Source of the DNA: Lachnospiraceae bacterium
GTDB lineage: Bacteria; Bacillota; Clostridia; Lachnospirales; Lachnospiraceae
NCBI GenBank assembly: GCA_017936785.1
Contig: JAGBEV010000009.1
Location: forward strand, 62,001-126,000
Direction of reading: 5' to 3'
DNA: 64,000 bases
Shown here: positions 41,291 to 59,601 of the stretch, piece after piece
Numbering within the stretch: position 1 is the first letter of the stretch
Layout of the letters: every line of letters begins with the position of its first letter
Translations under genes and position numbers: made by a program
Notes under the pieces: model-generated
What the model was told of the DNA's origin: nothing
Database searches by the model: none
The model's input: the letters and a program-made list of their open reading frames with translations, nothing else

Positions 41291-41321
41291 GGATAGGAAA
41301 AAGTGCTGAAATAAAAGGATT

Positions 41322-41374
41322 TCCGAGAGGTTGGACTGTTTGGACAGCAGTTCCGCCGCTCGGATTTTTTTATT
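41322..41374 (+). terminator. Probable terminator after rlmD
   Basis: ATTTCCGAG and CTCGGATTTTTTT flank a loop with smaller pairing (GGACTG/CAGTTCC), 30-80 bp after the stop. The stem is 6-7 bp and the T-run is strong. Confidence 0.5.
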
Positions 41375-41530
41375 TTCCGCAGTATGCGGAAACAAATCCA
41401 CGGTTCAAAATGCAGGAGGGTTGAGTTGGCGAGATAGATAATGGGCAGGTTGTGTAGATGGGATTGTTAAAACGGGGTCAAGTGGACAGGATTGATACAG
41501 GTAAAGATATATATTGAGAGAAAATGACTT

Positions 41531-41580
41531 GCAATCATTTTTTAATTAGATTAATATGCTACTACCTTGGGGAAGGTACG
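41531..41580 (+). promoter_or_regulatory. Second promoter-like signal with a palindrome at its start site
   Basis: TTGCAA 41531-41536, 17-bp spacer, TAATAT 41554-41559, then a perfect palindrome TACCTT-GGGG-AAGGTA (41565-41580). CCTTGGGG/AAGG sequences are typical of MerR-family dyads, so this may be the relic of another MerR promoter or a second operator for the regulator at 41658. Confidence 0.4.
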
Positions 41581-41604
41581 CTTATTAGTGTGCCAAAAGG
41601 GTCG

Positions 41605-41635
41605 TTGACTTTTCCCTAAGGGTAAAGTTTATACT
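41605..41635 (+). promoter_or_regulatory. MerR-type promoter with 19-bp spacer and central dyad
   Basis: TTGACT 41605-41610, spacer 41611-41629 (19 bp), TATACT 41630-41635. The spacer holds the near-palindrome ACTTTTCCCTAAGGGTAAAGT. An overlong spacer with a dyad is diagnostic for MerR activation by DNA distortion, and the MerR gene starts 22 bp later, implying autoregulation. Confidence 0.85.
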
Positions 41636-41657
41636 GGAATTGGAAGGAGGTAAATGA

Positions 41658-42482
41658 ATGCTGACAATCGGAGAGTTCTCGAATATATGCAAGGTATCAA
41701 CAAAAACACTGCGTTATTACGCTGAAATAGGTTTGCTTGAGCCAAGTGAAGTGAATCCTGAAAACGGATATCGCTACTATGCGATTGAACAACTTGAAAG
41801 GATGTTGTTTATTAATCGTTTAAAGGAATACTCCTTTTCCTTAGATGAGATTAAGGCAATTTTGCAATCGGAAGAAGTACAAGACGATAGTCTTTATCTT
41901 GCATTAGTTCAGAAAAAGAAAAAAATTGAAAAACAAGTACATAATTACAGACAAATTCTAACACAGTTGGAAGATGATATAACGGCTGTTAGGCAGGGGA
42001 AATCCATTATGGCTTATATGGAGGATATTGATGTTCAGCTTGTAGAATTGCCAAAGATGTATCTTCTATCTATCAGAAAAAGCGTACAAGTTGAAGATTA
42101 TCCTACAGAATATAGAAATTGCTTTGGAAAGCTATTTAAAAGAATTGCGGTTGATAAACTGACAATAGCTGGTGCACCAATGGCACTTTTTCACAGTTCG
42201 GAGTTTTCGCCGTCTGGTTTAGACACAGAGTTTGCTATACCTGTGAAAGAGTATGCTACAGGTACACGAGATTTTTGCCCAGGTTTATGCTTGAAAACAG
42301 TTGTACAGGGATATACGCAACTTTCTTCTATTTACGCTAAGCAGATAAAATGGGCAGAAAAAGAAGGATACCAAGGCACAAACGCGCTGTTTGAAGCCTA
42401 TGTGACTGATCCATCACAGGTTACAGACGAAATGGATCATATCACAGAAGTATACTATCCTGTAAAAAAGATTTCACTATAG
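41658..42482 (+). CDS. MerR family regulator with GyrI-like effector domain
   Basis: 274 aa. N-terminal MerR HTH (LTIGEFSNICKVSTKTLRYYAEIGLLEPSEVNPENGYRYY), dimerisation coiled coil (about 80-115) and a C-terminal GyrI/AraC effector-binding-like domain (about 125-270). It is a BmrR-style drug- or metabolite-sensing activator. Start ATG with GGAAGGAGG. It lies 37 bp upstream of a serine hydrolase gene, likely its target, in one operon driven by the 19-bp-spacer promoter. The region is more AT-rich than its neighbours. Confidence 0.9.
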   Translation: MLTIGEFSNICKVSTKTLRYYAEIGLLEPSEVNPENGYRYYAIEQLERMLFINRLKEYSFSLDEIKAILQSEEVQDDSLYLALVQKKKKIEKQVHNYRQILTQLEDDITAVRQGKSIMAYMEDIDVQLVELPKMYLLSIRKSVQVEDYPTEYRNCFGKLFKRIAVDKLTIAGAPMALFHSSEFSPSGLDTEFAIPVKEYATGTRDFCPGLCLKTVVQGYTQLSSIYAKQIKWAEKEGYQGTNALFEAYVTDPSQVTDEMDHITEVYYPVKKISL

Positions 42483-42519
42483 TTTATGCTGTGAGCCACA
42501 TTAAGAAAGGAAAAAATGG

Positions 42520-43500
42520 ATGAAGCAAGAAGAAATAGCAAAAATGGAAGATCTAATCAAAACAAATTACTCCAATATTGTGGGAATGGTTGTCTTGAAA
42601 GACGATAAGACGGTCTATGAAAATTATTTTAATGGTTGCACAGAAGCCAACCGTATTCATGTCTTTTCAGTAACCAAAAGCATTTTATCTATACTATTCG
42701 GAATTGCATTGGATAAGGGCTATATAGAAAGCATTAACCAAAAAGTGTTAGAGTTTTATCCGGAATACACCGTTAAAAAAGGAGAAAAAACGATCCAGAA
42801 TATCACACTTAGAGATATGCTGACCATGACTGCCCCTTATAAATATAAGTTCAATCCTTATACAAAATATTTTTCAAGTATGGATTGGGTAAAGTTTTCT
42901 CTTGATTTATTAGGTGGCAGAGGTCATATTGGAGAATTTAGATATGCTCCAATTGTCGGTCCAGACATTTTGTCGGGTGTTCTTGTGAAAGCAACAGGAC
43001 AATCAGTATTTGATTTTGCAAAGGAAAACCTGTTTGCTCCATTAGGAATTACAGTTGAAAAAAATATTACTTTTCATAGTAAAGAAGAACAGATGGCATT
43101 TTATAAAGCAACAGATGTCAGCGGCTGGGTTGCGAGTCCAACGGGAGTAAATGCAGCGGGTTGGGGACTTACCCTATCGCCTATGGATATGGCTAAAATC
43201 GGTCAGTTGTTTCTAAACGGTGGTACATGGAACGGAAGCCGTATTGTATCTGAGAAATGGATTGCTGAAAGTACATCGGAAAAGAGCCGATGGAAACAGC
43301 GTAATTTGCCTTACGGATATTTGTGGTGGCTTGGAGAAGATAAAGGTTATGCGGCTATGGGCGACGGCGGAAATATTATTTACGTCGATCCAAAGGAGAG
43401 AATGGTAGTTGCGATCACTTCTCTTTTTCGACCAAGAGCAAAGGATAGGATTGAATTCATAAAAAAATATATTGATCCGATTTTTAAGAAAGCAATATGA
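42520..43500 (+). CDS. Serine hydrolase, beta-lactamase class C/EstB-like
   Basis: 326 aa. The catalytic SxxK motif is in FSVTKSILSILFG (Ser about 51, Lys about 54); a Tyr-containing YAPIVGPDILSGVLVKATG segment (about 142-160) and a GDGGNIIYVDP loop (about 285) match the class C fold. No signal peptide is present, so it should be cytoplasmic and act as an esterase or peptidase rather than a classical exported beta-lactamase. It is probably controlled by the upstream MerR protein; the substrate is unknown. Confidence 0.85.
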   Translation: MKQEEIAKMEDLIKTNYSNIVGMVVLKDDKTVYENYFNGCTEANRIHVFSVTKSILSILFGIALDKGYIESINQKVLEFYPEYTVKKGEKTIQNITLRDMLTMTAPYKYKFNPYTKYFSSMDWVKFSLDLLGGRGHIGEFRYAPIVGPDILSGVLVKATGQSVFDFAKENLFAPLGITVEKNITFHSKEEQMAFYKATDVSGWVASPTGVNAAGWGLTLSPMDMAKIGQLFLNGGTWNGSRIVSEKWIAESTSEKSRWKQRNLPYGYLWWLGEDKGYAAMGDGGNIIYVDPKERMVVAITSLFRPRAKDRIEFIKKYIDPIFKKAI

Positions 43501-43640
43501 AATGAATAAATCTTTATGTCTGTTGAATAACAACATTGCTTTGGTAAAGATGATTAAGAAATGGATATAGCTAGTACATCGGCTCTGTTTTTAGCAGAAA
43601 AGCATATTTAGTTTTTGTTATCTGTGCTTATTCCGCCCAT

Positions 43641-44112
43641 TTGTCTCTGCATTTCATTCAATTTTATCACGTAGTTACAGATAGACCAATGCAGATAGGA
43701 CAGCACATAGTTTTTGATGATGAAAACCATAGTGGTGTTTACGACAGAGTTATGAGTAAACTTTCCATCGTAAATGATATTTATAAATACCCAGATAAAT
43801 ATGATATCAAAAAATTAGAACATCATACACAGGTAGCATTAAGAGAATTGGCTCTAGAAAAAATAAGAAAAAGGGAGTATCCTGAGTATCCATCAAGAAT
43901 GAGTAGTTTATATGTTTCAGAAAGTATTGAGGAATCGGAGAAATGGGCAGAATGATTTATTGCTTGGGGTAGGTCAACATATTCTATTGTTTGCTGAACG
44001 CTATTGAAAAAAACTTCCCAATTTGCAAGGTGATCCACCTATAAAAGAAATATTGGTTAACGGTGATATCGAGGTGAAAGAGATTATAAAAGAGATAAAT
44101 AAAAACATATAA
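43641..44112 (+). pseudogene. Decayed DUF2441 family gene
   Basis: The first 104 codons read FYHVVTDRPMQIGQHIVFDDENHSGVYDRVM, the DUF2441 opening, and stop at TGA after EESEKWAE. The same frame continues FIAWGRSTYSIVC, then breaks. A further piece, AERY(stop)KKLPNLQGDPPIKEILVNG...INKNI, follows in another frame and ends at TAA 44112. So at least two nonsense changes plus an internal deletion or frameshift have broken the gene. An upstream start is also unclear. DUF2441 genes are typically mobile accessory genes. Confidence 0.75.
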
Positions 44113-44257
44113 ACAAGTTCCAGTTTTTCAAAGAAACCTTGATTTTCTGCAGTTTGTGGGATATTAAGGAACGAAAATGGATGTGTGTTTTGTAGCCTTA
44201 TGAATGAACTATTTGAATATCGTAGCAGTGGGGTGTTTTGAAACTCTGCTGAATAAT

Positions 44258-44321
44258 AGGCTTTTGCTAAAAAGTATCGCTTTTGCGAAAATGTATGATA
44301 CTTTCCGGCAGAAGCCTTTTT
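44258..44321 (+). terminator. Terminator upstream of the mecA-like operon
   Basis: AGGCTTTTGC pairs with GCAGAAGCCT, with an inner AAAGTATC/GATACTTT stem (44258-44316), and TTTTTAT follows. It isolates the operon from the decayed DUF2441 gene. 44113-44257 shows nothing recognisable. Confidence 0.75.
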
Positions 44322-44334
44322 ATATAAAGATAAC

Positions 44335-44425
44335 TTGACTTCTAAATCTTACTGATGTAATATTTACAAAAGTGCAGTAAGTTTTCGAATAAATTTTTTT
44401 GTTCCAAAATCTTACAAATGTAATA
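44335..44425 (+). promoter_or_regulatory. Promoter of the mecA-like operon with two BlaI boxes
   Basis: TTGACT 44335-44340, 17-bp spacer, TAATAT 44358-44363. Box 1, TCTTACTGATGTAATA (44347-44362), lies across the spacer and -10. Box 2, TCTTACAAATGTAATA (44410-44425), lies in the leader. Both contain the TACnnATGTA dyad typical of BlaI/MecI operators, and the same box recurs at the blaI promoter (52685-52700). BlaI bound here would block transcription of 44496-50200. Confidence 0.8.
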
Positions 44426-44495
44426 CCTGGAGAGATAACGTACGTTGAAAATAGAACATGACCATATCAACAAAGCAAAATGAATGGAGGTCAAT

Positions 44496-46613
44496 ATGAA
44501 AAAAGGAAAAAACAGAAACAAGCGAAAGAAAACAAGAAGCAGGCTCCTATGGATTGCTGTTATAGGAATAGCTGCGGTAACTGCTGCAGTATGCGTGGCA
44601 GGAATGTTGGCAACAAAAGAAAATACGTGTAAGACACCGGAAGAACTTCTGGTGGAGTACATGGATCATATTCCAAAACAGGAATATGAAGAAATGTATG
44701 CAATGCTGCACATTGAAGCATCGGGAAATGTCAGCCAGGAGGATTTTGTAACTCGAAATTCAGCTATTTATGAAGGCATTGAGGTGCGGAATATGACAGT
44801 TGAAATTCTGGCATATGATGAGGAGCAAATGACGGTAACCTATCAGACCTCCTTCGATACAGTTGCAGGAAATATCAGCTTTGAGAATGAAGCACTCTTC
44901 CTAAAGGGCGAAGAAGGATATAAGCTGGTTTGGGATGATTCCATGATTTTTCCGAATCTGACTTCTTCTGATAAAGTAAGAGTTTCCACTACACAGGCAG
45001 AACGAGGAGAAATTCTGGATAGGAATGGACGTGTTCTTGCAGGAAAAGGTACAGCATCTTCGGTTGGAATCGTTCCGGGCAAGTTGGAAAACCGAGAGGA
45101 AGCAATCGCACAGATTGCAGAACTGTTGGAAACGACACCGGAAGAGATAGAAAAAAAGCTGTCAGCACAGTGGGTAAAGGATGATTCCTTTGTACCGATT
45201 AAAACAATTCTGAGAGTTGAAGAAATCGAACTCATGAAGATTGAACTGGACGAAGAGGTACTGAAAGAAAAGGAAAGACACGAAAAGTTGCTGGCGATTC
45301 CCGGAGTGATGATATCTGATGTTGAAGTGCGTGAATATCCATTAGGGGAAGCAGCTGCACATTTGGTCGGATATGTTCAAAGTGTTACTGCGGAAGATTT
45401 AGAGGAACATGCAGGAGAAGGTTATACAGCCAATAGTGTAATAGGTAGAAGCGGAATGGAGGGCTTGTTCGAGAGTGAACTGAAAGGTCAGAACGGTTGC
45501 AGGATTTACATTGTAAACCCGGAAGGCAAAGAGAAGGATGAACTCGCTTGTATCATGGTGCAGCATGGGCAGGACATCCAGCTTACGATAGATGCCGATT
45601 TGCAGGTTTCCCTGTACGAACAGTTTAAAGAAGATAAAAGCTGCTCGGTAGCTATGAATCCTTATACCGGAGAGGTATTGGCTTTGGTCAGCACTCCATC
45701 CTATGATAATAACGATTTTATTATGGGATTGTCCAGTGAGAAGTGGACTGCACTGAACGAGGATGAGGATAAGCCTATGTATAATCGGTTCCGGCAAGTG
45801 TGGTGTCCGGGGTCTACATTTAAGCCAATTACTGCTGCGGTCGGTTTGGAATCAGGAGCAATCGATCCAATGGAAGATTACGGGAACGTAGGCTTAAGTT
45901 GGCAAAAGGACGCATCGTGGGGGTCCTATCATGTAACAACACTCCATGCATATGAACCAGTCATTTTAGAGAATGCCCTGATATATTCCGACAATATTTA
46001 TTTCGCAAAGGCAGCATTAAAGATTGGTTCAGAAGAGATGGAGAGTTCTTTGACTGGACTTGGTTTTAATGAGGAACTGCCATTTGAGATTAAGATGGCA
46101 GAGTCGCAGTATTCCAATACAGAAGGCATTGAAACTGAAATACAGTTAGCTGACAGCGGCTACGGACAAGGACAGGTTTTAGTGAATCCGTTACATATGG
46201 CTTGTATCTATTCTGCTTTCTGTAATGGCGGTAACATTATAAAACCTTATCTGGTCTATCAAAAAGAGGTAACAGCTGAATACTGGATTGCAGAAGCGTT
46301 TTCAGAAGAAACTGCCAATCATGTATTGGAAGGAACAAAGAAGGTTGTGAATGATTCTAATGGAACTGGATATGCAGCCCATCGGGATGACGTTCTTTTA
46401 GCAGGAAAAACAGGTACAGCAGAAATTAAGGAATCGAAGGATGATACTTCTGGTACGGAATTAGGATGGTTTGCTATTTACACAGCAGAGAAAGACGTAG
46501 AACGTCCTATATTGATTATAAGCATGGTAGAAGATGTAAAAGGAAGAGGAGGAAGCGGATATGTTGTTAAGAAAGACAACCTGGTTCTGGAAGAGTGGTT
46601 TGGCAGCAATTAG
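44496..46613 (+). CDS. MecA/PBP2a-like penicillin-binding transpeptidase (class B)
   Basis: 705 aa from ATG 44496 (GGAGG five bases upstream). A basic cytoplasmic tail and one membrane helix (about 18-40) precede an NTF2-like MecA_N domain (about 45-150, ending YKLVWDDSMIFPN). A linker/dimerisation domain follows (SERGEILDRNG-type start, here AERGEILDRNGRVLA). The transpeptidase domain has SxxK in CPGSTFKPITA (about 430), SDN in LIYSDNIYF, and KTGTAE (about 625). The MecA_N domain distinguishes it from cell-cycle PBPs. PBP2a-like enzymes keep crosslinking peptidoglycan when other PBPs are acylated. The BlaI boxes and BlaR1/BlaI genes support induction by beta-lactams; actual resistance is untested. 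Confidence 0.9.
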   Translation: MKKGKNRNKRKKTRSRLLWIAVIGIAAVTAAVCVAGMLATKENTCKTPEELLVEYMDHIPKQEYEEMYAMLHIEASGNVSQEDFVTRNSAIYEGIEVRNMTVEILAYDEEQMTVTYQTSFDTVAGNISFENEALFLKGEEGYKLVWDDSMIFPNLTSSDKVRVSTTQAERGEILDRNGRVLAGKGTASSVGIVPGKLENREEAIAQIAELLETTPEEIEKKLSAQWVKDDSFVPIKTILRVEEIELMKIELDEEVLKEKERHEKLLAIPGVMISDVEVREYPLGEAAAHLVGYVQSVTAEDLEEHAGEGYTANSVIGRSGMEGLFESELKGQNGCRIYIVNPEGKEKDELACIMVQHGQDIQLTIDADLQVSLYEQFKEDKSCSVAMNPYTGEVLALVSTPSYDNNDFIMGLSSEKWTALNEDEDKPMYNRFRQVWCPGSTFKPITAAVGLESGAIDPMEDYGNVGLSWQKDASWGSYHVTTLHAYEPVILENALIYSDNIYFAKAALKIGSEEMESSLTGLGFNEELPFEIKMAESQYSNTEGIETEIQLADSGYGQGQVLVNPLHMACIYSAFCNGGNIIKPYLVYQKEVTAEYWIAEAFSEETANHVLEGTKKVVNDSNGTGYAAHRDDVLLAGKTGTAEIKESKDDTSGTELGWFAIYTAEKDVERPILIISMVEDVKGRGGSGYVVKKDNLVLEEWFGSN

Positions 46614-47802
46614 TTTTGCACGGATGCTTAGTATTTCGGGGTGCAATGATGTACCCCTGAAAGAAGATACAGTTTCGAAAACAATAATTGATGTTCAGAC
46701 TATTCCAGAAGAATCACAGGAGGATACAGACGAGATTATAAGCATATGCATTGATCTTTATGAGAAAGCGGAAGAAGAAAATAAGTTAGCTGATTTGGAA
46801 ACAATCCGCAGTATTGTAAATCGCCTTGGAGAAAATGGTTATTCAGCAGTTGACAGTAAAAACCAGATTGATATGACTGAGGCAGAGCAGGTGGTGGGGT
46901 TCTGCGAAATGGTGGATGCGAAGAATGAGGCAGAAATAACCATAATTGAGGTTAGTTATCTGCCCGGTTTTGTAAAATATGATTTGCAGACAAAAGATGG
47001 AAATGTAGATGTGGTCAGAAGCTATTACAAGTATGAAAACGGAATTATACAGAGAAACACAACAGAAAGTTATCAGGCAGAATACTGGAACTATACAGAA
47101 GAAGGATACCTGATGTTTTCTGGAGTCTGGTATTCGGAAGAATTATATATTCTTACATTAAGTGGAGTGGAGGAGAACACTACATTACGAGTGCAGCCTT
47201 TGGATGAGACGTGCAGAGAACTGACTCGGAAGTATCTTACTCCAATCAGCTTTGAACAGAATAATATGTTTATCGTGGATTGGAGTGAGGATGATTTTGG
47301 AGAACTGAATTTTTATGATATGTATGACATTCTCTATCAAAAAGAAAATGGAGAGTATGTTCCTTATGTCGCAGATGACAACTTAGGAGTCGGTGCGGTT
47401 TACCGGATTCCGAAGGAGAAATTTGAAAGCGTTATTATGACATATTTCAATATCGATAGTGAAACGCTGCAATCCAAAACGGTCTATTATTCAGAGGATT
47501 CGACCTATGAATATAAGCCGAGAGGGTTTGAAGAAGTGGAGTACCCGGAATATCCATATTCAGAAGTAATCGGGTTCACAGAGAACAGCGATGGAACAAT
47601 TACACTTACAGTTAATGTGGTATTTCCGCATTCAGGTAATTCCAAGGTATATGCCCATGAGGTTGTGGTCCGTCCTTTGAAGGATGGCGGGGGACAATAT
47701 GTATCTAATCGAATCATACCTTCCGAGGATAATGGTGAGGAAACATGGCATACACCTCGTTTGACAGCAGAGGAATGGGAAGAACTGTATGGAGGTAAAT
47801 AA
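46561..47802 (+). CDS. Predicted lipoprotein, first of three tandem paralogues (DUF6070-like)
   Basis: 413 aa. GGAGGAAGCGGAT precedes the ATG, which lies inside the end of the transpeptidase gene (53-nt overlap). The N-terminus is a signal peptide with lipobox ISGC (Cys about 28). The mature part shares with the next two genes a set of ordered motifs: 'RVQPLDETCRELTRKY', 'VDWSEDDFGELNFYDM', 'YRIPKEKFESVIMTYF' and, near the end, 'ENSDGTITLTVNVVFP...VVVRPL'. From memory it matches the family called DUF6070. Exported envelope protein of unknown role, co-expressed with a MecA-like PBP. Confidence 0.8.
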   Translation: MLLRKTTWFWKSGLAAISFARMLSISGCNDVPLKEDTVSKTIIDVQTIPEESQEDTDEIISICIDLYEKAEEENKLADLETIRSIVNRLGENGYSAVDSKNQIDMTEAEQVVGFCEMVDAKNEAEITIIEVSYLPGFVKYDLQTKDGNVDVVRSYYKYENGIIQRNTTESYQAEYWNYTEEGYLMFSGVWYSEELYILTLSGVEENTTLRVQPLDETCRELTRKYLTPISFEQNNMFIVDWSEDDFGELNFYDMYDILYQKENGEYVPYVADDNLGVGAVYRIPKEKFESVIMTYFNIDSETLQSKTVYYSEDSTYEYKPRGFEEVEYPEYPYSEVIGFTENSDGTITLTVNVVFPHSGNSKVYAHEVVVRPLKDGGGQYVSNRIIPSEDNGEETWHTPRLTAEEWEELYGGK

Positions 47803-48908
47803 TGGAAGATGTAAAATGGCTGTTGAAGAAATGGGGCTTCTCAATGTTGATATTGCTAATTGCGGTAATAGCAGGAGTGATTTGTTGGGGGAAGCTGCAT
47901 ACGGAAGAAAAGAAAGTGGCAGAGGAAGTATGGGAGCCTTTGGTGGAAATTGAGGACAGTGAAACGGTAACGAAAGAAGAAAACGATACAGAAACTTCCA
48001 CAGAGTCAGCATATTGGTTTATTCCGCAATCCAGTGATTGCCTTATTACAGAAGAGGAAAAGGCACAACTGCAGGACATGGCATTAGAGGCAGCAGGGCA
48101 GGCAAAAGAAGTATATGAGATGGAAAAGCAGGATGCAATGGTTACGATTTTTGAGGTGAATGGGGATGGTATGATCGGTGCCGTCACATTTATATACAGG
48201 GAAGATAAACTGCAGACCTATTATGTGGGAATCGGATGGCAGGAAGGAGGTATTCCTGAAATAAGAGACACTTTAGTAAGTGATGTGGAGGAAATCAATC
48301 TGACAGAAAAGGGATACTTCATCTATGCTTATAAAGAAATGATTGCCCATGGGAGTATGCGTCAGTACTGGAGAATAAAGCCTCTTTCAGATGAATGCAG
48401 GAAATTGACAGAAAAATACATAGCGGGATTAAGTTATGTAAACTATAATGTGCTTGTGACAAATTGGGACAGCAGCAACGTGGAAGATATTTTGATGCCC
48501 TGTATGTTTGAAGATATATATAGTATTGACAGAGGAGAAAATCTAATAACAGAAAATAGAATGATTCCCGCAGAAATATATGAGAATATCATGACCACTT
48601 ATTTTCCGGTGTCGGTGGAGCAGTTACGGAAAAAGTGTGGATATGATGAGAACAGTGACAGTTATCCATACGAAATGATCTATGCAAGTCCATATCCGCC
48701 TTTTGGAGAAGTCATTGATTATAAATATAACAAAGATGGAACGATTACGCTGATCGTAGATGGAGTATGGCCGGATTACAATTCCGACTTTGCCTTTAGA
48801 AATAAGATTGTAGTACAGCCCTTTGAGGATGGAACCTTCAAATATCTTTCCAATTCTATAGAACAAAAAGAATTGGAGCTGCCACCAATAGCAAGAACGA
48901 AAGGTTGA
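47802..48908 (+). CDS. Membrane-anchored paralogue 2 of the tandem family
   Basis: 368 aa. Its ATG overlaps the previous stop (TAATGG), with GGAGG upstream. Instead of a lipobox it has an uncleaved-type N-terminal anchor (about 13-30, FSMLILLIAVIAGVICW), then an acidic linker. The shared motifs are present: RIKPLSDECRKLTEKYIAGLSY, TNWDSSNVEDI, MIPAEIYENIMTTYFPVSVEQL and NKDGTITLIVDGVWP...VVQPFEDGTFKYLSNSI. The extracytoplasmic domain is therefore homologous to its neighbours. Different anchoring suggests paralogues working side by side. Confidence 0.8.
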   Translation: MEDVKWLLKKWGFSMLILLIAVIAGVICWGKLHTEEKKVAEEVWEPLVEIEDSETVTKEENDTETSTESAYWFIPQSSDCLITEEEKAQLQDMALEAAGQAKEVYEMEKQDAMVTIFEVNGDGMIGAVTFIYREDKLQTYYVGIGWQEGGIPEIRDTLVSDVEEINLTEKGYFIYAYKEMIAHGSMRQYWRIKPLSDECRKLTEKYIAGLSYVNYNVLVTNWDSSNVEDILMPCMFEDIYSIDRGENLITENRMIPAEIYENIMTTYFPVSVEQLRKKCGYDENSDSYPYEMIYASPYPPFGEVIDYKYNKDGTITLIVDGVWPDYNSDFAFRNKIVVQPFEDGTFKYLSNSIEQKELELPPIARTKG

Positions 48909-48913
48909 TGCTA

Positions 48914-50200
48914 ATGGCAAAAACAAAACTTATGGTTTTATTTAAGAGAAAAAGCATTCTACTGATTATGGCATTGATGATCCCATGCTTCTTATGGGCT
49001 TGTGGGAAAGAAGATAAAATTTCAAGTGAATCACTTGTGGAAGATACAGAAGAAATAATTTCTACAGAGGAAGCAAAGGGTGATGGGGAAGAAGCAGAAC
49101 AATGGGTAAAGGGGTATGACCTTCCGGTAAATCAGCGGGAAAGAGAAGAAGCTGAGAATGACTGCAGAAAGATGATGGAGCTTATATCAGATATTTATAG
49201 AGATGCAGATAAAGGAACGGCATCTAATGTTGTTTTGAAGGATGAAACAATTCTTGAGATGCAGAAAAAGGTAATGAAAACAGGGTGTCCGGTTGCTGCA
49301 TCGGTAGTGTATTCTAATTTGGGAAATTATGAAAGTGTTGATGATTTTCTTGAGGAATGTATGGATGGAAAAAGCGGTTCTGTAGTAGTCTACAAGATAC
49401 ATAATGATGGCGGCATAGGGAGAATGAAATTTGTTTTTGACGGAACAGATATGTATGTTGTAAGTACAACGGGCGTATGGAACGATAATAACAAGCCGGG
49501 AATATTATATATTTCCCACACCAGGGTCAAAGAGTGGAAATATACAGATAAAGGGGGGTTTTGTTATGAACTATGTGTTCCGGAGTATCCTGAAGTAACG
49601 GAGATGGTTGATGGGAGCTGTCTGATTAGAGTAAAGCCAATGACAGAAGAACAGCGGGAAATGTCTGAAAGATGTGTGCTTGGTCTGGGATATCAGGGGA
49701 ATAACCTTTTATGCTCCAATTGGGATATAGACCATATGGAAGCGTTGGATTATAATGGGATGTATGAATATCTGTATGCAATGAAATATCAGGAAAAGTT
49801 CAATTCTGAGGATTACCCAAATGGAATACCGAAAGAGGAATTCGAAAAACTGATCATGGAATATCTGCCGGTAACAGCAGAGCAGATACAGAAATATGCA
49901 GTATTTGATGAGAAAAACCGGACTTATGTATGGGTGCGGCTTGGCTGCTCTAATTATGCACCGACTTTCTTTGGAACCTCTTTGCCGGAGGTTACAGATA
50001 TAAAAGAAAATGAAGATGGGACAGTTACTTTAACGGTGGATGCCGTATGCGATATGGTCATCTGTGATGATGCAGTCATAACCCACGAACTTACAGTGCG
50101 TTTTGCAGAGGACGGCAGTTTCCGATATTTGGGCAATGAAATCCTTGATAATGGAATAAAAGACATTCCTGATTATCAGTATCGTATTGGTAATAAATAG
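48914..50200 (+). CDS. Predicted lipoprotein, paralogue 3 of the tandem family
   Basis: 428 aa from ATG 48914 (AAGG nine bases upstream; TTG 48905 and ATG 48908 are alternatives, overlapping the previous stop). Signal peptide with lipobox LWAC (Cys about 30). Shared motifs: IRVKPMTEEQREMSERCVLGLGYQ, SNWDIDHMEALDYNGMYEYLY, IPKEEFEKLIMEYLPVTAEQIQ and ENEDGTVTLTVDAVCD...VRFAEDGSFRYLGNEIL. The last gene of the operon on the plus strand; it converges on blaR1 with no clear terminator. Confidence 0.8.
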   Translation: MAKTKLMVLFKRKSILLIMALMIPCFLWACGKEDKISSESLVEDTEEIISTEEAKGDGEEAEQWVKGYDLPVNQREREEAENDCRKMMELISDIYRDADKGTASNVVLKDETILEMQKKVMKTGCPVAASVVYSNLGNYESVDDFLEECMDGKSGSVVVYKIHNDGGIGRMKFVFDGTDMYVVSTTGVWNDNNKPGILYISHTRVKEWKYTDKGGFCYELCVPEYPEVTEMVDGSCLIRVKPMTEEQREMSERCVLGLGYQGNNLLCSNWDIDHMEALDYNGMYEYLYAMKYQEKFNSEDYPNGIPKEEFEKLIMEYLPVTAEQIQKYAVFDEKNRTYVWVRLGCSNYAPTFFGTSLPEVTDIKENEDGTVTLTVDAVCDMVICDDAVITHELTVRFAEDGSFRYLGNEILDNGIKDIPDYQYRIGNK

Positions 50201-50255
50201 CTGTGGAGTTGTTAGCGGTTGCCCGGGTGTCTGAAGGAGGGAAAATAAAAAACTG

Positions 50256-50435
50256 GTGCTTATCACTGTTGATCCCATAGAATGGCAGTATTGTGTGAGG
50301 GCAAGCCACGCTCAGGCACAGAAATTATTTGAACAGAATAAAAAGGAAAGCCCATTCCTGATTTTCAGCCGGGATGTTTTCTGTTATGACAAAAGTACGA
50401 AACAGCTTAAAATCAGTAAAAAATATAGTTTGTAA
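50256..50435 (+). CDS. Short ORF or gene tail of unknown origin
   Basis: 59 codons open from GTG 50256 (the frame is open from about 50237): ITVDPIEWQYCVRASHAQAQ, then KLFEQNKKESPFLIFSRDVFCYDKSTKQLKISKKYSL. Composition is protein-like, but the GGAGGG at 50236-50241 is too far (about 15 nt) for a normal start, so it may be the decayed end of a lost gene. It fills most of the 282-bp gap between the lipoprotein operon and blaR1. No family recognised. Confidence 0.35.
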   Translation: MLITVDPIEWQYCVRASHAQAQKLFEQNKKESPFLIFSRDVFCYDKSTKQLKISKKYSL

Positions 50436-50482
50436 CAACCGATCGGAGGAATAAAGAAAAGGAGCAATAAGGCATTCAGCAA

Positions 50483-52279
50483 TTATTCCCAGATATTCAT
50501 GTCGGATAAAACGGACAAAGAGATATCCGCTGCGGTGCTTCCGGCGGCATTTCTATCGGCTTTAATATTTGTGGCAAAAAAGTATGTATGATCTTGGGTT
50601 TCCACAAAGCCAACAAACCATCCATTAACATCCTGACCATTTACACGTCCGGTCCCGGTTTTTCCGTAGAGTGTTCCGGCATCAGAAGAGGAAAGGCGGA
50701 GGGAATCTTTTACGGCATTGATATTTTCAGAAGAAAAATCAAAGCTGTTATTATATAGTTTTGTTAAAAGCTCCACCTGCTCTATTGGAGAAATTTTTAA
50801 AGAAGATTCCATCCAATAAGTGGCGAGATCGCCACCCATGTTTTCGTTGCCATACCCGATTTTTTGAACATAGTTGTAAAGGTCAGTGGCTCCAAGCTGT
50901 TTGTCTATTGACTGAAAATACCAGTTCACGGAGTTGCTCATAGCGGACTGCAAGGTCTGATCAGCGTTCCATGCTTCAAAGGGATAATTTTCCCCATCCC
51001 ATGCAATAAAGGAATCTGACAGTGTAATGACACCCTCTTCTAAACCGAACAGGGCATCATATATTTTATAGGTGGAGTCTGGTGCAACGCGCAGAGCAGC
51101 ATGCTCCATATCATATATGCTCCAGGTATCATTTTCCAAATCATATAAAACAAAACTTCCTTCATAATTTCCAAAGTATGCAGAAAGGTCTACATAGGAA
51201 ATACTTTCTGAGGAGGAGTTCCATTGGTAGTGACTTCCGTCTGCTGCGTATGTAGAAATAAATGGGGCAAGTCCTAAAAGGAGAACGGAAGTCAGTATAA
51301 ATGCAGTCATACCCTTTAATCTTTTCCAAATTGTGGGTTTCTCATAAGAGGCAATATTGATAATGCGCCGTTTCATCTGCTTCATGTTTCCGCTGAGTCC
51401 GGCGGCAAACGGAAAGGGAGACAGAGAAATTTTTTCTGCAAAGTTGATCAGCGTATTGCCATAATCCTCATAGGCATCTTCTTTCAGCATTTTCAAAACA
51501 GAAGTGTCACAGGCGACCTCTCTGTCATTACGCATTTCCTTTAATGCGTACCAGACAAGGGGATTGAACCAATAGATCACTCCGGCAAAGTTCATCAGGA
51601 AGCCTGCAAGGGCATCTTTGTGTTTGTAATGCTGTAGTTCGTGCAGCAGCATATACCGTATATCCGATTCTTTATAGTCCGAGATTAAATGTATCGGCAG
51701 GTAAATGCCTGGTTTGAACAGTCCTACGATGATAGGGGATTGCAAAAATGCGGTACTGTAGATAGGTATATTTCTGTGAATCCCCATTTCATTTAAACAG
51801 CGAAAATACAGGCTGCGGGCTTTCGGGTTCTGAAGAGGAAGTGCAGATATTTTTAAAGCGCGCAGACGGAGAGCGGATTTTATTGCGAATATGATCATTG
51901 CAATAATACCCACAATCCAGATTCCGAATAATATGTATCCGGCAATGGGTGGGATTCCACGATTTACGGAAAGAGTAAAATCATTCATCCAATCTGCATT
52001 TATGGTCAGATCTGTCCCCATAGTTTTGCCCATAGCAGTTTCAGTATTGGAAACAGGGGGATTTTGCAGGCTGCCGAGCCATGAGAAAATTTGAGGAAAC
52101 CCGATGAAAGGGAACGGTACAAAAGGAACTGCCAGCAATCCCAGCAGCAGGAACCACAGGTTATACTGCATCCGGCTGGACAGACTGTTTTTGAATATCC
52201 ACCTGGCTATCAGAAGTATTCCGATGATACCGCTGATAAAAACATTGCATATTAAAAAGCGTATCATAAAATCAGCCAC
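50483..52279 (-). CDS. blaR1: BlaR1/MecR1-type beta-lactam sensor protease
   Basis: 598 aa starting at GTG, one base after the blaI stop. The N-terminal part has several membrane helices around an M56 zinc protease domain: HELQHYKHKD (HExxH, about 213-222) and EMRNDREVACD. A membrane helix near 330 leads to an extracellular class D beta-lactamase-like sensor with STYK (active Ser, about 400), SNS in MSNSVNWYF (about 450) and KTGTGRVNGQDVNGWFVG (about 540). Acylation of the sensor Ser by beta-lactam triggers the protease, which ends BlaI repression. Confidence 0.93.
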   Translation of the reverse strand: MADFMIRFLICNVFISGIIGILLIARWIFKNSLSSRMQYNLWFLLLGLLAVPFVPFPFIGFPQIFSWLGSLQNPPVSNTETAMGKTMGTDLTINADWMNDFTLSVNRGIPPIAGYILFGIWIVGIIAMIIFAIKSALRLRALKISALPLQNPKARSLYFRCLNEMGIHRNIPIYSTAFLQSPIIVGLFKPGIYLPIHLISDYKESDIRYMLLHELQHYKHKDALAGFLMNFAGVIYWFNPLVWYALKEMRNDREVACDTSVLKMLKEDAYEDYGNTLINFAEKISLSPFPFAAGLSGNMKQMKRRIINIASYEKPTIWKRLKGMTAFILTSVLLLGLAPFISTYAADGSHYQWNSSSESISYVDLSAYFGNYEGSFVLYDLENDTWSIYDMEHAALRVAPDSTYKIYDALFGLEEGVITLSDSFIAWDGENYPFEAWNADQTLQSAMSNSVNWYFQSIDKQLGATDLYNYVQKIGYGNENMGGDLATYWMESSLKISPIEQVELLTKLYNNSFDFSSENINAVKDSLRLSSSDAGTLYGKTGTGRVNGQDVNGWFVGFVETQDHTYFFATNIKADRNAAGSTAADISLSVLSDMNIWE

Positions 52280-52280
52280 G

Positions 52281-52667
52281 TTAATTGTCTCCTTTGTGGT
52301 GCTGCTGTGAAAGAAGGGAACGGAGAGTATCTATTTCTGTCTCGGACAGTCTGTCGTTTTCTATGTACGCAGACAGCATGGCAGTAATATCCCCGTCATA
52401 AAAACGTTTCAAAAAAGAATTGCTTTCATGACCGATATATTCGCTTTCTTTCACCACCGGAGTATAAACAAATACACGGCTCTGCTTTTCATAAGTGAGA
52501 GCACCTTTGGTTACAAGACGTTTAATCAGTGTCTGTATGGTTTTAGGACTCCAGCGTGTAGTCTGTAATAATTTTTCCGTTATTTCATTGGTACTGATCG
52601 GAGCATGTTTCCATACGATTTTCATAACTTCAAATTCAGCTTCAGAAATCTGCGGCAAATTGCCCAT
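52281..52667 (-). CDS. blaI: BlaI/MecI-family repressor
   Basis: 128 aa. N-terminal winged helix with the family opening ISEAEFEVMKIVWKHAPISTNEITEKL, recognition part WSPKTIQTLIKRLVTKGAL, and a C-terminal dimerisation helix pair (LKRFYDGDITAMLSAYIEN). It represses its own operon and, through identical boxes, the mecA-like operon at 44335. It overlaps blaR1 translationally. AGGAGG precedes the ATG. Confidence 0.95.
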   Translation of the reverse strand: MGNLPQISEAEFEVMKIVWKHAPISTNEITEKLLQTTRWSPKTIQTLIKRLVTKGALTYEKQSRVFVYTPVVKESEYIGHESNSFLKRFYDGDITAMLSAYIENDRLSETEIDTLRSLLSQQHHKGDN

Positions 52668-52684
52668 TTCAAATCCTCCTTAAT

Positions 52685-52734
52685 TCTTACGGATGTAATA
52701 AATATATTTTAGATGTTATTTGTGTAATTGTCAA
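52685..52734 (-). promoter_or_regulatory. blaI-blaR1 promoter with BlaI box
   Basis: Read on the minus strand: TTGACA (52729-52734), 17-bp spacer, TAAAAT (52706-52711). TCTTACGGATGTAATA, read on the plus strand at 52685-52700, overlaps the transcription start region and matches the two boxes at 44347 and 44410. Confidence 0.85.
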
Positions 52735-52756
52735 TTATTGATCAAAAAAGAAAAAA

Positions 52757-53638
52757 TCAGTTTTCCGTATTTTTCTGCTGTACAGTGGATATAAACTTTG
52801 AGATCAGGGGGCTGTTAGGATTTTTTTTATAGAAAACCCCATGTGATATAGGACTGCTGCCGGATAGTGGAACATATGTAATATCAGAATCAACAGAAGT
52901 GCCTTCCGGCAACACGGCAAATCCATATCCGGCTTTAATAAATGAAAGCACTACCTGCAGATTTTCACAGTAGTAAATAGATTCTGGCAGAAACTGATAC
53001 TCCAGACGGTTTTGGATATTAGCCACTTTAGACGGAATCTCATAGGAATTACAGATGATCATATTTTCCGAATATAGTTCCTTCTCGGTAATCTCTTTTT
53101 TCTGTGAAAACGGATGATCCGTTGGAACAGCACAACAGATTCTTATTTTATTGAGTTCTTTAAAGCAAATCCCATTGCGAATAGGAATATCATCTTTAAA
53201 ACCAAAGAGTACATCAATTTCACCATGGATAAAAAGATTAACAATGGATCTGTGAGGAATGATCCTGAAAAAAGGATGCAGTTCAGGCATTAGTATCCTG
53301 CATCGGGAAAGAGTTTTGGATAAATAAATCAGATTGGACTCATTGCTGCATGCAATAGAAATTATCTGGATATTGGATTTCCCGTGATTGTGTACCTTCA
53401 GAGAAGCCGTTTGTAATTTGGTGAGAACATCCTTTGCATCATCCAAAAAACTGATTCCTGCCGGGGTTAAGGAAACATTTCGGGTTGAACGGTTAAATAA
53501 TTTGGTTCCCAATTCCGTTTCAAGGGAATTGATCTGACGGGAAACCGCTGATTGTGTAATGTTTAAAACTTCGGCAGCTCTTGCAAAATTAAGATTTTCT
53601 GCCACCTGAACAAAGCTTTCTAACTGCTGTGTATTCAT
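52757..53638 (-). CDS. LysR family transcriptional regulator
   Basis: 293 aa. N-terminal HTH (LESFVQVAENLNFARAAEVLNITQSAVSRQINSLETELGTKLFNRSTRNVSLTPAG) and a type-2 periplasmic-binding-like effector domain (about 90-290). A likely target is the divergently placed MFS transporter/kinase-like gene pair at 54198 or the small ORF at 53919. Effector unknown. Confidence 0.92.
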   Translation of the reverse strand: MNTQQLESFVQVAENLNFARAAEVLNITQSAVSRQINSLETELGTKLFNRSTRNVSLTPAGISFLDDAKDVLTKLQTASLKVHNHGKSNIQIISIACSNESNLIYLSKTLSRCRILMPELHPFFRIIPHRSIVNLFIHGEIDVLFGFKDDIPIRNGICFKELNKIRICCAVPTDHPFSQKKEITEKELYSENMIICNSYEIPSKVANIQNRLEYQFLPESIYYCENLQVVLSFIKAGYGFAVLPEGTSVDSDITYVPLSGSSPISHGVFYKKNPNSPLISKFISTVQQKNTEN

Positions 53639-53918
53639 ATCTTCATCCCCTATTGATGCGTTTATGTCATCAATAATACTATTTTTTCAATTCACTTTCA
53701 AGGTTATTCGTGTTTTAATATTATTCGCAAACAAACATTTTGAAAACTGGTTGGCTGGTGCGGTTGTTAATAGTCAAAAGACTATATATAGACCGGAAGT
53801 AAAAAGTGAACGGGATTCCACATACGAAATGAAAGAAACCACAGACAGTGGTATTTTTTTGGTGCACCGGTGACGGATGCACTGGTAATACGATTTAAAA
53901 AAAGAAAGGATATGGAAA

Positions 53919-54047
53919 ATGGAAACGAAAGCAAAAATTGAATTACTTGAAAGAAGATTGCAGATATTATCTGCCAGGGAAAAGGAGAATCAGGGCGTGT
54001 GCAGGAGGATACAACGGGATATTAGAAATTTAAAGAAAAAAATATAA
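53919..54047 (+). CDS. 42-aa basic coiled-coil small protein
   Basis: METKAKIELLERRLQILSAR begins it, then EKENQGVCRRIQRDIRNLKKKI and stop. It is helical and highly charged with Leu/Ile heptads. AAAGGATATGGAAA precedes the ATG. It lies in the 559-bp gap between the LysR gene and the MFS gene. It resembles short clostridial coiled-coil proteins seen beside LysR genes (from memory, unconfirmed). 53639-53918 holds weak promoter-like AT-rich sequence and no gene I can support. Confidence 0.5.
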   Translation: METKAKIELLERRLQILSAREKENQGVCRRIQRDIRNLKKKI

Positions 54048-54197
54048 AGGAACAGGTATTTGCCGGAAAAATATCCAGGGAGGCAGAATAAGGATAGAAA
54101 ATCTGAATATTATCATTGACCGTCAATTATAGAAGCGTCGCAGATCAGTGGTTTGTCAATGAGAAAAATGCAGTTACAGACATGACGGAGGAAACAT

Positions 54198-55400
54198 ATG
54201 GGAAAAGAAAAGATATGGAATAAAAAATTTGTTTTACTATTTATAACGAACTTGCTGATGATGGCAACATTTTATGCTTCGGTTCCCATTTTGCCCATTT
54301 ATTGTCAGCAGAATGGGATCACAGGTTCTAAGATCGGCATTGTTTTAACAGCTATGTCGGTAACAACTGTATTATTCAGACCTTTTGCAGGATATATTCT
54401 GGATAACTTTAACCGCTATCATGTGTATATGCTGTTTCTGGCTCTGTTCTGCCTGCCCTTTTTGGGATTTGCGGCTTTTCCTATTTATGGAGTGCTGGTA
54501 CTGATCCGTCTCTATATGGGTGTTGTATATTCCGTATGCGGTTCTGCTACTACCACCCTTGCCGGAGATGTTCTTCCCCAGAGTAAGGTAAGAGAGGGCG
54601 TTAATCGTTTCGCACTGACGATTTCTCTTGGCATGGCAGCCGGTCCCTTCATCGGCATCCAGGTTCAGAATCATATGAGCAGTAAGGCATCTTTCCTTGT
54701 ATTGTTTGCTTTGACAGTAATAGCTTTGATCTGTGTATCTTTTTGCCGGATAAAATATCCGAAAGCAGAAAAGAAAAAGTTTGTTTTAGCAGATGCTTTT
54801 TATAAACCGGCGCTGCCCTTTATGTTCAATATGATGTTTATCATGGTGCCTTTTGGGGCAGTGATCGCATATTCATCCATATTTGCCCAGGAAAAAGGAT
54901 TGTCGGCAGTCATTCCTTATTTTTATATCTTCCTGGTGGCAGGAATGCTGATCTCAAAATTTTCCACACAAAAGATGATCGATGCCGGAAAGCACAGGAT
55001 CTTAGTGGGGCTTTGCCTGATCGTTTTAATGATCACAATGGGAAGTTATTTCTTTATGACCACGGCAGTCCATCTGCTGTTGGCAGGATTTTTATTGGGA
55101 CTTGGTTATGGTATTTTACAGCCGTTGTTTCAGTCATTTGTAACCGGAACAACTCCGGCACCGAAGCGTGGAACTGCCAATGCTACATATTTGTTATCCT
55201 ATGATATTGGAATCGGTATCGGTTCTTTCCTAATGGGAATGTTTCAGGAAAGCATCGGTCTTGCTGCCGGTTTTGCAGTTACGGCTGTGACTTATATCAT
55301 TGGAGCAATCATTTATGCTGTTTATGTTGATGGGTATTATTCAAAGCTGATAAAACAAAAACAGCAGGGAGGAGATATATGGGACAAAAAACTATTATAA
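54198..55400 (+). CDS. MFS transporter (drug-efflux type)
   Basis: 400 aa with 12 hydrophobic helices. The first loop motif A is relaxed (FRPFAGYILDNFNRYHVYM) and motif C-like GMAAGPFIGI follows. GGAGGAAACAT precedes the ATG. Upstream, ATTGAC-C-GTCAAT (near 54115) is a small palindrome that could be an operator. It shares an operon with the cytidylate-kinase-like gene, which begins inside its last codons. Substrate unknown; regulation by the divergent LysR protein is plausible. Confidence 0.88.
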   Translation: MGKEKIWNKKFVLLFITNLLMMATFYASVPILPIYCQQNGITGSKIGIVLTAMSVTTVLFRPFAGYILDNFNRYHVYMLFLALFCLPFLGFAAFPIYGVLVLIRLYMGVVYSVCGSATTTLAGDVLPQSKVREGVNRFALTISLGMAAGPFIGIQVQNHMSSKASFLVLFALTVIALICVSFCRIKYPKAEKKKFVLADAFYKPALPFMFNMMFIMVPFGAVIAYSSIFAQEKGLSAVIPYFYIFLVAGMLISKFSTQKMIDAGKHRILVGLCLIVLMITMGSYFFMTTAVHLLLAGFLLGLGYGILQPLFQSFVTGTTPAPKRGTANATYLLSYDIGIGIGSFLMGMFQESIGLAAGFAVTAVTYIIGAIIYAVYVDGYYSKLIKQKQQGGDIWDKKLL

Positions 55401-56996: not shown

Positions 56997-57662
56997 ATGA
57001 AAACAGAAGACTTTTTAAAAATTATAAAAAATGATATTCATACAACAGTCATGGCAACAGTTGATGAGATGGGGCATCCGGTCACGAGAATCATTGATGT
57101 GATGCTGGCAGATGATAAAACACTATATTTTATTACGGCAAAGGGAAAGGAATTTTACAGACAGCTTATGGCACAGGCATATGTTTCCATAAGCGGGGCA
57201 TACGGCGGAGAAGGAATGGACAAAAAGGAAGCATCCATTCATATGAAGGCAGTTTCTATCCGAGGTACAGTTCAAATTTTGGGCAGTCAGAAGCTAAATG
57301 AGGTTTTTGAGAAAAATCACTATATGAAAGAGATTTACCCGGATGCAGCGTCCCAAAAAGCCTTGGAAGTGTTTTGTATTAAGGAAGGAACGGGAGAATA
57401 CTTTGATCTTTCCGTAAAGCCCATTAAACGGGAGTCTTTTTTTGTAGGAACCCGGGAAGAAAATGCCCCCAAAAGATCAAAGGGGTATTGTATTACAGAG
57501 GCATGTACAGGCTGTCAGGCATGTGTGGCGGTATGCCCTCAGAAAAGTATTGTTACAGATAAAATTCCTTTTCAGATCCGTCAGGAAAATTGTCTGCATT
57601 GCGGCAATTGTATGAGGGTATGTCCTGCAGGTGCAGTAAATAATGAATATTTGGAAGGTTAA
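56997..57662 (+). CDS. Pyridoxamine-phosphate-oxidase-like flavin domain fused to a 2[4Fe-4S] ferredoxin
   Basis: 221 aa from ATG 56997 (GAGGTG upstream; GTG 56991 is an alternative). The N-terminal split-barrel flavin domain (about 1-130, TVMATVDEMGHPVTRIIDVM) is followed by a dicluster ferredoxin (about 165-215): CTGCQACVAVCPQ and CLHCGNCMRVCPA. The fusion could shuttle electrons from Fe-S to FMN. Second gene of the Rrf2-regulated cluster, 54 bp after the first. Function unproven. Confidence 0.85.
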   Translation: MKTEDFLKIIKNDIHTTVMATVDEMGHPVTRIIDVMLADDKTLYFITAKGKEFYRQLMAQAYVSISGAYGGEGMDKKEASIHMKAVSIRGTVQILGSQKLNEVFEKNHYMKEIYPDAASQKALEVFCIKEGTGEYFDLSVKPIKRESFFVGTREENAPKRSKGYCITEACTGCQACVAVCPQKSIVTDKIPFQIRQENCLHCGNCMRVCPAGAVNNEYLEG

Positions 57663-57678
57663 GAATGGAGGGAGCATA

Positions 57679-59467: not shown

Positions 59468-59496
59468 ATGCAGGAAGGATTTAAGCGGCTGCAGCC

Positions 59497-59535
59497 GATG
59501 TAATCCTTGACATTACATTACGGTGTTTATAAAAT
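59497..59535 (+). promoter_or_regulatory. Promoter and operator of the Rrf2 gene
   Basis: GATGTAA-N9-TTACATT at 59497-59519 overlaps TTGACA (59507-59512), with a 17-bp spacer to TAAAAT (59530-59535). It matches the two operators at 56064 and 56113, implying autoregulation. Confidence 0.8.
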
Positions 59536-59601
59536 GAAATCTGGAAACCCGCTGATGAAAGTCAGGGGATAAGATAAAGAATTTTCAAAAGAGAGGAAAT
59601 A

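Follow-up and report, generated by a model that had tools for sequence, protein, structure and literature searches.

Inducible penicillin-binding proteins (PBPs) with a MecA_N domain, the sensor-repressor pair BlaR1-BlaI and the mec/bla operator are already known. For that operator, a figure legend of PMC5341023 gives the consensus [A/G]NATTACA[A/T]NTGTA[A/G][T/G]NT. Here we analysed a 64,000-nucleotide stretch (the window) of a Lachnospiraceae bacterium genome (GCA_017936785.1, contig JAGBEV010000009.1, positions 62,001 to 126,000), in which a blaR1-blaI pair converges on an operon of one PBP gene and three genes of the DUF6070 family. The link between DUF6070 and BlaR1-BlaI is what appears to be new. 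We consider it likely that this locus is a horizontally acquired beta-lactam-response module, moved between genera, that pairs an inducible PBP of what we take to be class B3 with a dedicated set of exported DUF6070 proteins.

All genes that an initial annotation had placed at 44335-52734 are present there as open frames. The ends of the PBP and DUF6070 genes overlap or almost touch, and this forward-strand arm converges with the reverse-strand blaR1-blaI arm, as had been described, each arm having its own operators (Table 1). Pfam and NCBIfam scans revealed no beta-lactamase gene among the module's own genes. The PBP that heads the operon matches MecA_N (3.7e-16), PBP_dimer (3.6e-39) and Transpeptidase (1.8e-57) and carries the predicted catalytic motifs (STFK at 440, SDN at 498 and KTGT at 638), which together form the MecA-type domain set and the SxxK, SxN and KTG series of mecA/PBP2a. 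The proposed likeness to MecA/PBP2a holds for these domains but not for the identity of the protein: MECA_PBP2A is only its second NCBIfam model (425.8 bits, cut-off 750), after enterococcal PBP4(5) (NF051842, 600.2 bits, cut-off 700). Because the PBP lies below both curated cut-offs, neither model would name it. Among solved structures it is closest to 7bn9, an entry named penicillin-binding protein 3, and to PBP5 and PBP2a entries. Among 53 aligned PBPs (window included), SxxK and KTG occur in all and SDN in 52, with N for D in one. Judged by these comparisons, the PBP is a separate class-B3-type branch that reaches neither named equivalog cut-off, and low beta-lactam affinity would be expected by analogy with known systems of the family.

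BlaR1 matches Peptidase_M56 and Transpeptidase, passes the cut-off of 400 for the NCBIfam model blaR1_generic (NF000326) with 696.2 bits, has an OXA-like sensor domain and aligns over residues 9-596 with the solved Staphylococcus aureus BlaR1. HExxH, SxxK and KTGT are present in 74/74 aligned BlaR1 sequences, the window included. The gene paired with blaR1 encodes a BlaI that matches Penicillinase_R over positions 1-115 of 115 (7.3e-35, 120.2 bits) and aligns with solved MecI and BlaI.

The three further envelope proteins recognised between PBP and sensor are indeed present, but they belong to one family that also occurs without an adjacent PBP: all three genes (46561-50200, forward strand) match DUF6070 (PF19546) at 1.8e-58 to 2e-137. 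A scan of genome contigs reported 315 DUF6070 relatives, and 80 loci were kept, to which the locus counts below refer. They include Coprococcus catus, Clostridium fessum, Roseburia inulinivorans, Blautia glucerasea and Hungatella hathewayi; a few record titles lie outside the Lachnospiraceae (e.g., a Bacilli metagenome-assembled genome). In a tree of 81 rows, the window copies fall in three clades, a, b and c, with support of 100, 100 and 99. All three are present as separate genes in 33/80 loci, arranged a-b-c in 31 and a-b-c-b in 2. Eleven fused DUF6070 open reading frames (ORFs) of 740-1240 amino acids (aa) were found in the 80 loci, suggesting that the parts work together. By a simple pattern, N-termini are lipobox-like in 39/46 clade a, 3/32 clade b and 32/70 clade c proteins.

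The AlphaFold2 model of copy c (residues 65-428) has a mean predicted local distance difference test score of 89.4, and of 93.8 over the first 162 of these residues. DUF6070 sequences found nothing better than E 0.2 among PDB sequences, and the model had no match at E <= 0.001 among viral structure models. A fold of the NTF2/SnoaL/ketosteroid-isomerase or cystatin-like type was frequent among weak PDB matches; template modelling scores were mostly <0.3 with large root-mean-square deviations, and we do not claim this fold. An origin from a MecA_N-like domain was dropped, as profile comparison with the MecA_N region of these PBPs gave a probability of only 0.3%. In the open-licence literature searched, neither the name DUF6070 nor its link to BlaR1-BlaI was found. 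Many relatives have extra exported- or membrane-looking ORFs between DUF6070 c and BlaR1 (L166 11347-13523, L225 8283-10835, L171 7250-8761 and L242 11193-12782, among others; L and G numbers denote loci and genomes), one of which recurs and starts like MKKFLKIMLCIMGS...DTSVSPDKKYE. None of 10 such ORFs scanned reached a Pfam cut-off (the best, an FG-GAP repeat, fell just below), and some have an operator directly upstream.

We profiled the operator core TTACN4GTAA within ~250 bases upstream of these genes, counting identical promoters once, as the set includes some genomes fetched twice. The core precedes 43/51 PBP genes, 69/76 blaI genes and 32/56 first DUF6070 genes (those without a PBP or DUF6070 gene directly before them), versus 4/725 of the remaining ORFs in these loci; the best of the permuted half-sites gave counts of 1, 3, 1 and 7 for the PBP, blaI, DUF6070 and other-ORF sets. 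Where BlaR1 or BlaI is no more than 12 kb away in the stretch examined, 26/34 first DUF6070 genes have the operator, against 8/22 of those with neither (Fisher p 0.005; some contigs are cut short). The operators extend to TMTTACN4GTAAKA, near the published mec/bla consensus, and the dyad TTAC(A)NN(T)GTAA is present at both module promoters. The boxes noted by the initial annotation are borne out: they are three of only five 16-base extended sites in the whole genome (two for the backwards control pattern), and the remaining two sit inside ORFs and may be chance. The extended form does not mark a module by itself, since among 17 genomes scanned G004, G007 and G008 have one site each and controls reach up to 5. 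The short form TACANNTGTA, with one mismatch, is in modest excess in the window (32 vs 20.8 by chance).

The limits 44335 and 52734 first given for the module are the -35 boxes of two promoter-like sites. Promoter scans found 3 sites vs 1.7 by chance on the PBP side and 3 vs 1.2 on the blaI side; given these counts, only the blaI-side promoter (11/12) is strong by itself. The window leader is shorter than in several PBP-bearing relatives, whose leaders hold an extra operator (9-locus alignment). One or two more operators lie past blaI in L165 (14600-14640), L170, L171, L202 and L209, some in a rightward promoter-like stretch; the gene that follows them in L202 has a Trans_reg_C DNA-binding domain. 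The window lacks this operator-bearing stretch beyond blaI.

Of 397 Lachnospiraceae genomes, 72 gave DUF6070 and 78 gave a close PBP (E <= 1e-50), each about one fifth; the PBP and DUF6070 rows listed all entered the gene-order tally. A BlaR1 search reached 100 genomes at E <= 1e-25, and 73 genomes (77 rows) were kept as BlaR1 by eye; class D beta-lactamase-like rows, M56-only rows and some fragments (e.g., two in G135) were dropped, and at least one weak row (G420, 28% identity) stayed. Chaining neighbours <6 kb apart gave 31 PBP+BlaR1 clusters, 30 of them convergent and one divergent (G214), so the gene-order survey that had been proposed supports a conserved convergent order. One to three DUF6070 genes lie between PBP and BlaR1 in 17 of the 31, and 12 have none in the chain. 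DUF6070 is also linked to BlaR1 without a PBP in the chain, in 13 more convergent clusters and one otherwise arranged (G312), where contig ends are possible; in G190 and G381 the PBP is on another contig than the DUF6070-BlaR1 cluster. The tally leaves 45 PBP, 35 DUF6070 and 31 BlaR1 places alone, some at contig ends. Per-genome co-occurrence is high (Fisher p 9e-19 to 1e-31, uncorrected for relatedness or for the BlaR1 rows picked by eye). Among the 80 DUF6070 loci, 30 have a PBP, 51 have BlaR1 and 28 have BlaR1 but no PBP in the stretch examined. A class-wide sample of 291 genomes, at least nine others from the family among them, yielded DUF6070 from the window's own genome alone. OXA-like ORFs, seen as partial similarity to the BlaR1 sensor, lie between BlaR1 and PBP in L099 (4366-5502) and opposite BlaR1 in L122 (3820-4803); class D beta-lactamases of other Lachnospiraceae may thus be governed by this switch too.

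By analogy with known systems, BlaI on dyads inside or beside both promoters would repress the PBP-DUF6070 operon and its own operon. A beta-lactam would acylate the sensor domain of BlaR1 outside the cell, and the BlaR1 metalloprotease would then cleave BlaI inside, turning both arms on. The PBP could take over transpeptidation while the native PBPs are blocked. The three exported DUF6070 proteins would be made together with it, a and perhaps c as lipoproteins and b anchored in the membrane. Our guess is that they form a fixed assembly on the outer face of the membrane, supporting wall synthesis or protecting the stressed wall.

The same parts could instead serve a general response to wall stress, in which BlaR1-BlaI senses natural gut signals (beta-lactam-like compounds or fragments of peptidoglycan) and wall repair falls to the PBP together with the DUF6070 proteins. 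Such a role would fit the DUF6070-BlaR1 clusters without a PBP (beta-lactamases were not counted), the hypothetical proteins in the BlaI regulons of Clostridium thermocellum (PMC8457756) and the displacement of Bacillus licheniformis BlaI and staphylococcal MecI from operator DNA by peptidoglycan dipeptides (PMC3305447). However, the sensor domain of BlaR1 is OXA-like and has kept its acylation motifs, and we regard a general stress response as somewhat unlikely.

It is also conceivable that the locus is a plain mec-like resistance module in which the PBP alone is of consequence, the DUF6070 genes being carried along passively and retained through their place in the operon. The MecA_N-bearing PBP beside a full BlaR1-BlaI pair, the 12 PBP+BlaR1 clusters with no DUF6070 in the chain and the broken DUF6070 copies of some relatives, such as the clade b gene split into two ORFs in L165 (Coprococcus catus), would agree with this. 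It fits poorly with the kept order of the three clades, with the 13 convergent clusters and 28 loci that combine DUF6070 and BlaR1 without a PBP in the chain or stretch examined, and with the congeners G002, G005 and G006, whose DUF6070-BlaR1-BlaI module has operators although their genomes lack a close PBP altogether (their DUF6070 genes are fused into ORFs of 1240, 783 and 1195 aa, respectively). Because DUF6070 recurs with BlaR1-BlaI and operators without an adjacent PBP, the PBP appears to be one cargo gene rather than the constant part, and mere hitch-hiking is unlikely.

The window genome (G000) is a 3.41 Mb draft with a contamination score of 8.77%; the contig belongs to it, since left of the module the genes keep the order seen in congeners, with protein identities of 66-92%. 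A close PBP is missing from all 8 congeners, whose matches reach just 1e-19 to 1e-22, and the best matches lie in other genera, at 92-93% identity in G033 and G253. This is unusually high: compared with G033, the PBP is 92% identical whereas the flanking PcrA is 59% and RumA 55-56% identical (PcrA is 73-85% identical to that of 7 congeners), which argues for transfer between genera and bears out the suspected horizontal spread. The module is patchily distributed in the family. Gene order is colinear up to rumA in 7 congeners and, judged from ORF starts, different beyond it in the 6 whose contig continues, so that the DNA past rumA varies within the genus. The truncated DUF2441 gene is confirmed at one side of the module. 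For the MFS gene at 54198, 8/8 congeners gave no match at 1e-30. The gene at 61264 was not found in the 8 congeners, G033 or G253, an empty answer that proves nothing as there was no positive genome. G033 and G295 likewise have the PBP a few kb beyond pcrA-rumA; in G253, G218 and G293, PBPs of 88-93% identity are on contigs other than the rumA contig.

Blastn comparison with 27 related loci chosen for inspection places the start of the shared DNA at 44125/44126 in 17 (44168-44391 in the others) and its end at 52736 in 20, with two more at 52739 and 52744. The leader opens with 17 bases (44126-44142) that match the 3' terminus of a recombinase-like gene of L169. In relatives, a GARACYGTNTGTCTGC-like motif precedes the left edge, and in L169 this motif is the C-terminal end (HVETVCLLSRKP) of a 559-aa ORF that starts like a serine recombinase. 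The window retains only the part after this motif, the left half of which has one 3-mismatch match there, at about chance level; in the other loci compared, a short frame ends at that point. Of the 80 loci, 14 have a serine recombinase (12) or phage terminase and portal genes (3) in the stretch examined, with no control set; examples were confirmed by Pfam, and none of that kind was found in the window or the next 9.2 kb. The IMG/VR contig L277 carries two DUF6070 ORFs with relaxase-like, recombinase-like and phage structural genes (named by reading), and the terminase and portal genes of L186 and L176, similar to those of L277, are matched by Pfam. The relaxase-like protein of L277 has no match in any of the 80 loci. 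We read the module as cargo of site-specific elements and prophage-like DNA, and infer the crossover itself.

DUF6070 was absent from 72,556 plasmid records searched and was found in one record of the phage collection and one IMG/VR contig; patterns built from the window protein alone found no PBP relative in IMG/VR. The record L276 (MT836875.1, 8392 bp, 'UNVERIFIED: Bacteriophage sp.', human faeces) is this module: alongside DUF6070 a and c it has a PBP (64%), BlaR1 (51%) and BlaI (80%), and four operator cores are present. Either a bacterial contig was mislabelled or bacterial DNA had been packaged. L224 (Sporofaciens musculi, titled plasmid unnamed) has DUF6070 a-b-c, BlaR1 split in two ORFs, BlaI and then two more DUF6070 genes. 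Vertical inheritance of an old family-wide module, lost in many species and without recent transfer, would explain why DUF6070 is confined to one genome of the class-wide sample and why the module follows pcrA-rumA in three genera (window, G033 and G295), a position that could be ancestral, but it is highly improbable in view of the 92% vs 59% identities, the congeners without a close PBP, the 88-93% identical PBPs away from the rumA contig and the recombinase or phage genes near the module in 14/80 loci.

Several observations nevertheless weigh against a transferred, BlaI-controlled module. The operator core is absent at 24/56 first DUF6070 genes, 8/51 PBP genes and 7/76 blaI genes; 8/34 first DUF6070 genes near BlaR1/BlaI lack it, and 8/22 distant ones have it. 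On the right, the shared DNA stops at a -35 box, so this edge may reflect function instead of the extent of transfer. No PDB structure matches the DUF6070 models at E <= 0.001. In S. aureus, cleavage of BlaI falls between Asn101 and Phe102, and this Phe is called 'almost invariant' (PMC9834060). The window BlaI has Ala-Tyr at this site (Ala100-Tyr101 by alignment), and the P1' residue in 69 aligned BlaI sequences (window included) is Y in 62, F in 5, C in 1 and L in 1. Phe at P1' is a described trait of solved and related systems to which no cut-off applies, and its absence alone does not exclude membership of BlaI/MecI. This family-wide replacement of Phe by Tyr where cleavage is expected is mild evidence against carrying over the staphylococcal details.

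Table 1 Features of the module and its left flank in the window.
Feature	Position	Strand	Details
Truncated DUF2441 gene	43641-43955		Matches only 42-91 of 141 profile positions
Conserved non-coding leader	44126-44334	+	Blastn similarity, alignment of 9 loci
Hairpin followed by T run	~44253-44323		Fold z = -2.54; alignment of 9 loci
Promoter-like site 1 of PBP-DUF6070 operon	44335-44363	+	TTGACT-17-TAATAT; consensus match only, 9/12
Operator 1	44347-44362		Inside promoter-like site 1
Operator 2	44410-44425	+	TCTTACAAATGTAATA
Class-B3-type PBP, 705 aa	44496-46613	+	MecA_N, PBP_dimer, Transpeptidase
DUF6070 clade a protein	46561-47802	+	Lipobox-like (ISGC) N-terminus; overlaps end of PBP gene
DUF6070 clade b protein	47802-48908	+	Hydrophobic N-terminus read as membrane anchor; no lipobox seen
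DUF6070 clade c protein	48914-50200	+	Hydrophobic N-terminus, atypical lipobox (LWAC); possibly lipoprotein
BlaR1 sensor/metalloprotease, 598 aa	50483-52279	-	HELQH, STYK, SVN, KTGT
BlaI repressor, 128 aa	52281-52667	-	Penicillinase_R
Operator 3, at blaI-blaR1 promoter	52685-52700		Just after -10 of promoter-like site
blaI-blaR1 promoter-like site	52706-52734	-	TTGACA-17-TAAAAT, 11/12

The PBP gene has a further in-frame ATG at 44484. The hairpin and T run in the leader are perhaps a terminator ahead of the module; paired changes across related leaders were seen by eye (AGTATC/GATACT vs GGTATC/GATACC), and an Rfam scan of 41000-54500 gave no match at E <= 0.5. Further along the window, at 57643-60039, a gene judged sirtuin-like by reading (Pfam gave nothing at 1e-4) is lined up with a Macro-domain gene and an Rrf2 regulator, resembling a linked sirtuin-macrodomain pair.

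More tentatively, DUF6070 may represent a third class of BlaR1-BlaI output besides beta-lactamases and low-affinity PBPs. These would be exported a/b/c envelope assemblies, without a recognised solved relative, that are carried between gut Lachnospiraceae and protect or rebuild the wall under beta-lactam attack, alone or with a class-B3 PBP. Beta-lactams are often given and act on gut commensals, and about one fifth of the sampled Lachnospiraceae would, if this is true, hold a transferable inducible module. DUF6070 itself gains a concrete regulatory context, as the same operator precedes DUF6070 genes without an adjacent PBP.

Compared with the staphylococcal and macrococcal mec complexes (mecA-mecR1-mecI and mecD-mecR1m-mecIm), the locus shares a MecA_N transpeptidase, a BlaR1/MecR1-type sensor, a BlaI/MecI-type repressor and an operator with the same core (consensus in the legend of PMC5341023). 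It differs in that its arms converge from separate promoters and operators, whereas mec/bla arms diverge from one intergenic operator and mec has a shared divergent promoter. Three DUF6070 genes are part of the operon here, and the PBP scores well under the MecA cut-off. The enterococcal PBP4(5)/PBP5 and Listeria PBPs have the same architecture and supply the best NCBIfam model and the best solved relatives; among the 15 of 41 plasmid-collection matches listed, PBP copies are 36-42% identical and come from Enterococcus, Listeria, Priestia and one record named Arthrobacter. The window PBP stays under the PBP4(5) cut-off of 700 and has operator boxes and blaR1-blaI nearby (enterococcal and listerial neighbourhoods were not compared). 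The bla systems (blaP/blaZ-blaR1-blaI, and class D beta-lactamase with BlaR1) share BlaR1, BlaI and the operator core, but not the lack of a beta-lactamase gene in the module itself. In C. thermocellum, the BlaI_0696 and BlaI_1845 regulons have other operator motifs, GTCTAT and GACTAT (PMC8457756; the likeness of their targets to DUF6070 was not compared). There too, BlaR1-BlaI targets uncharacterised hypothetical proteins, a precedent for such outputs of the switch.

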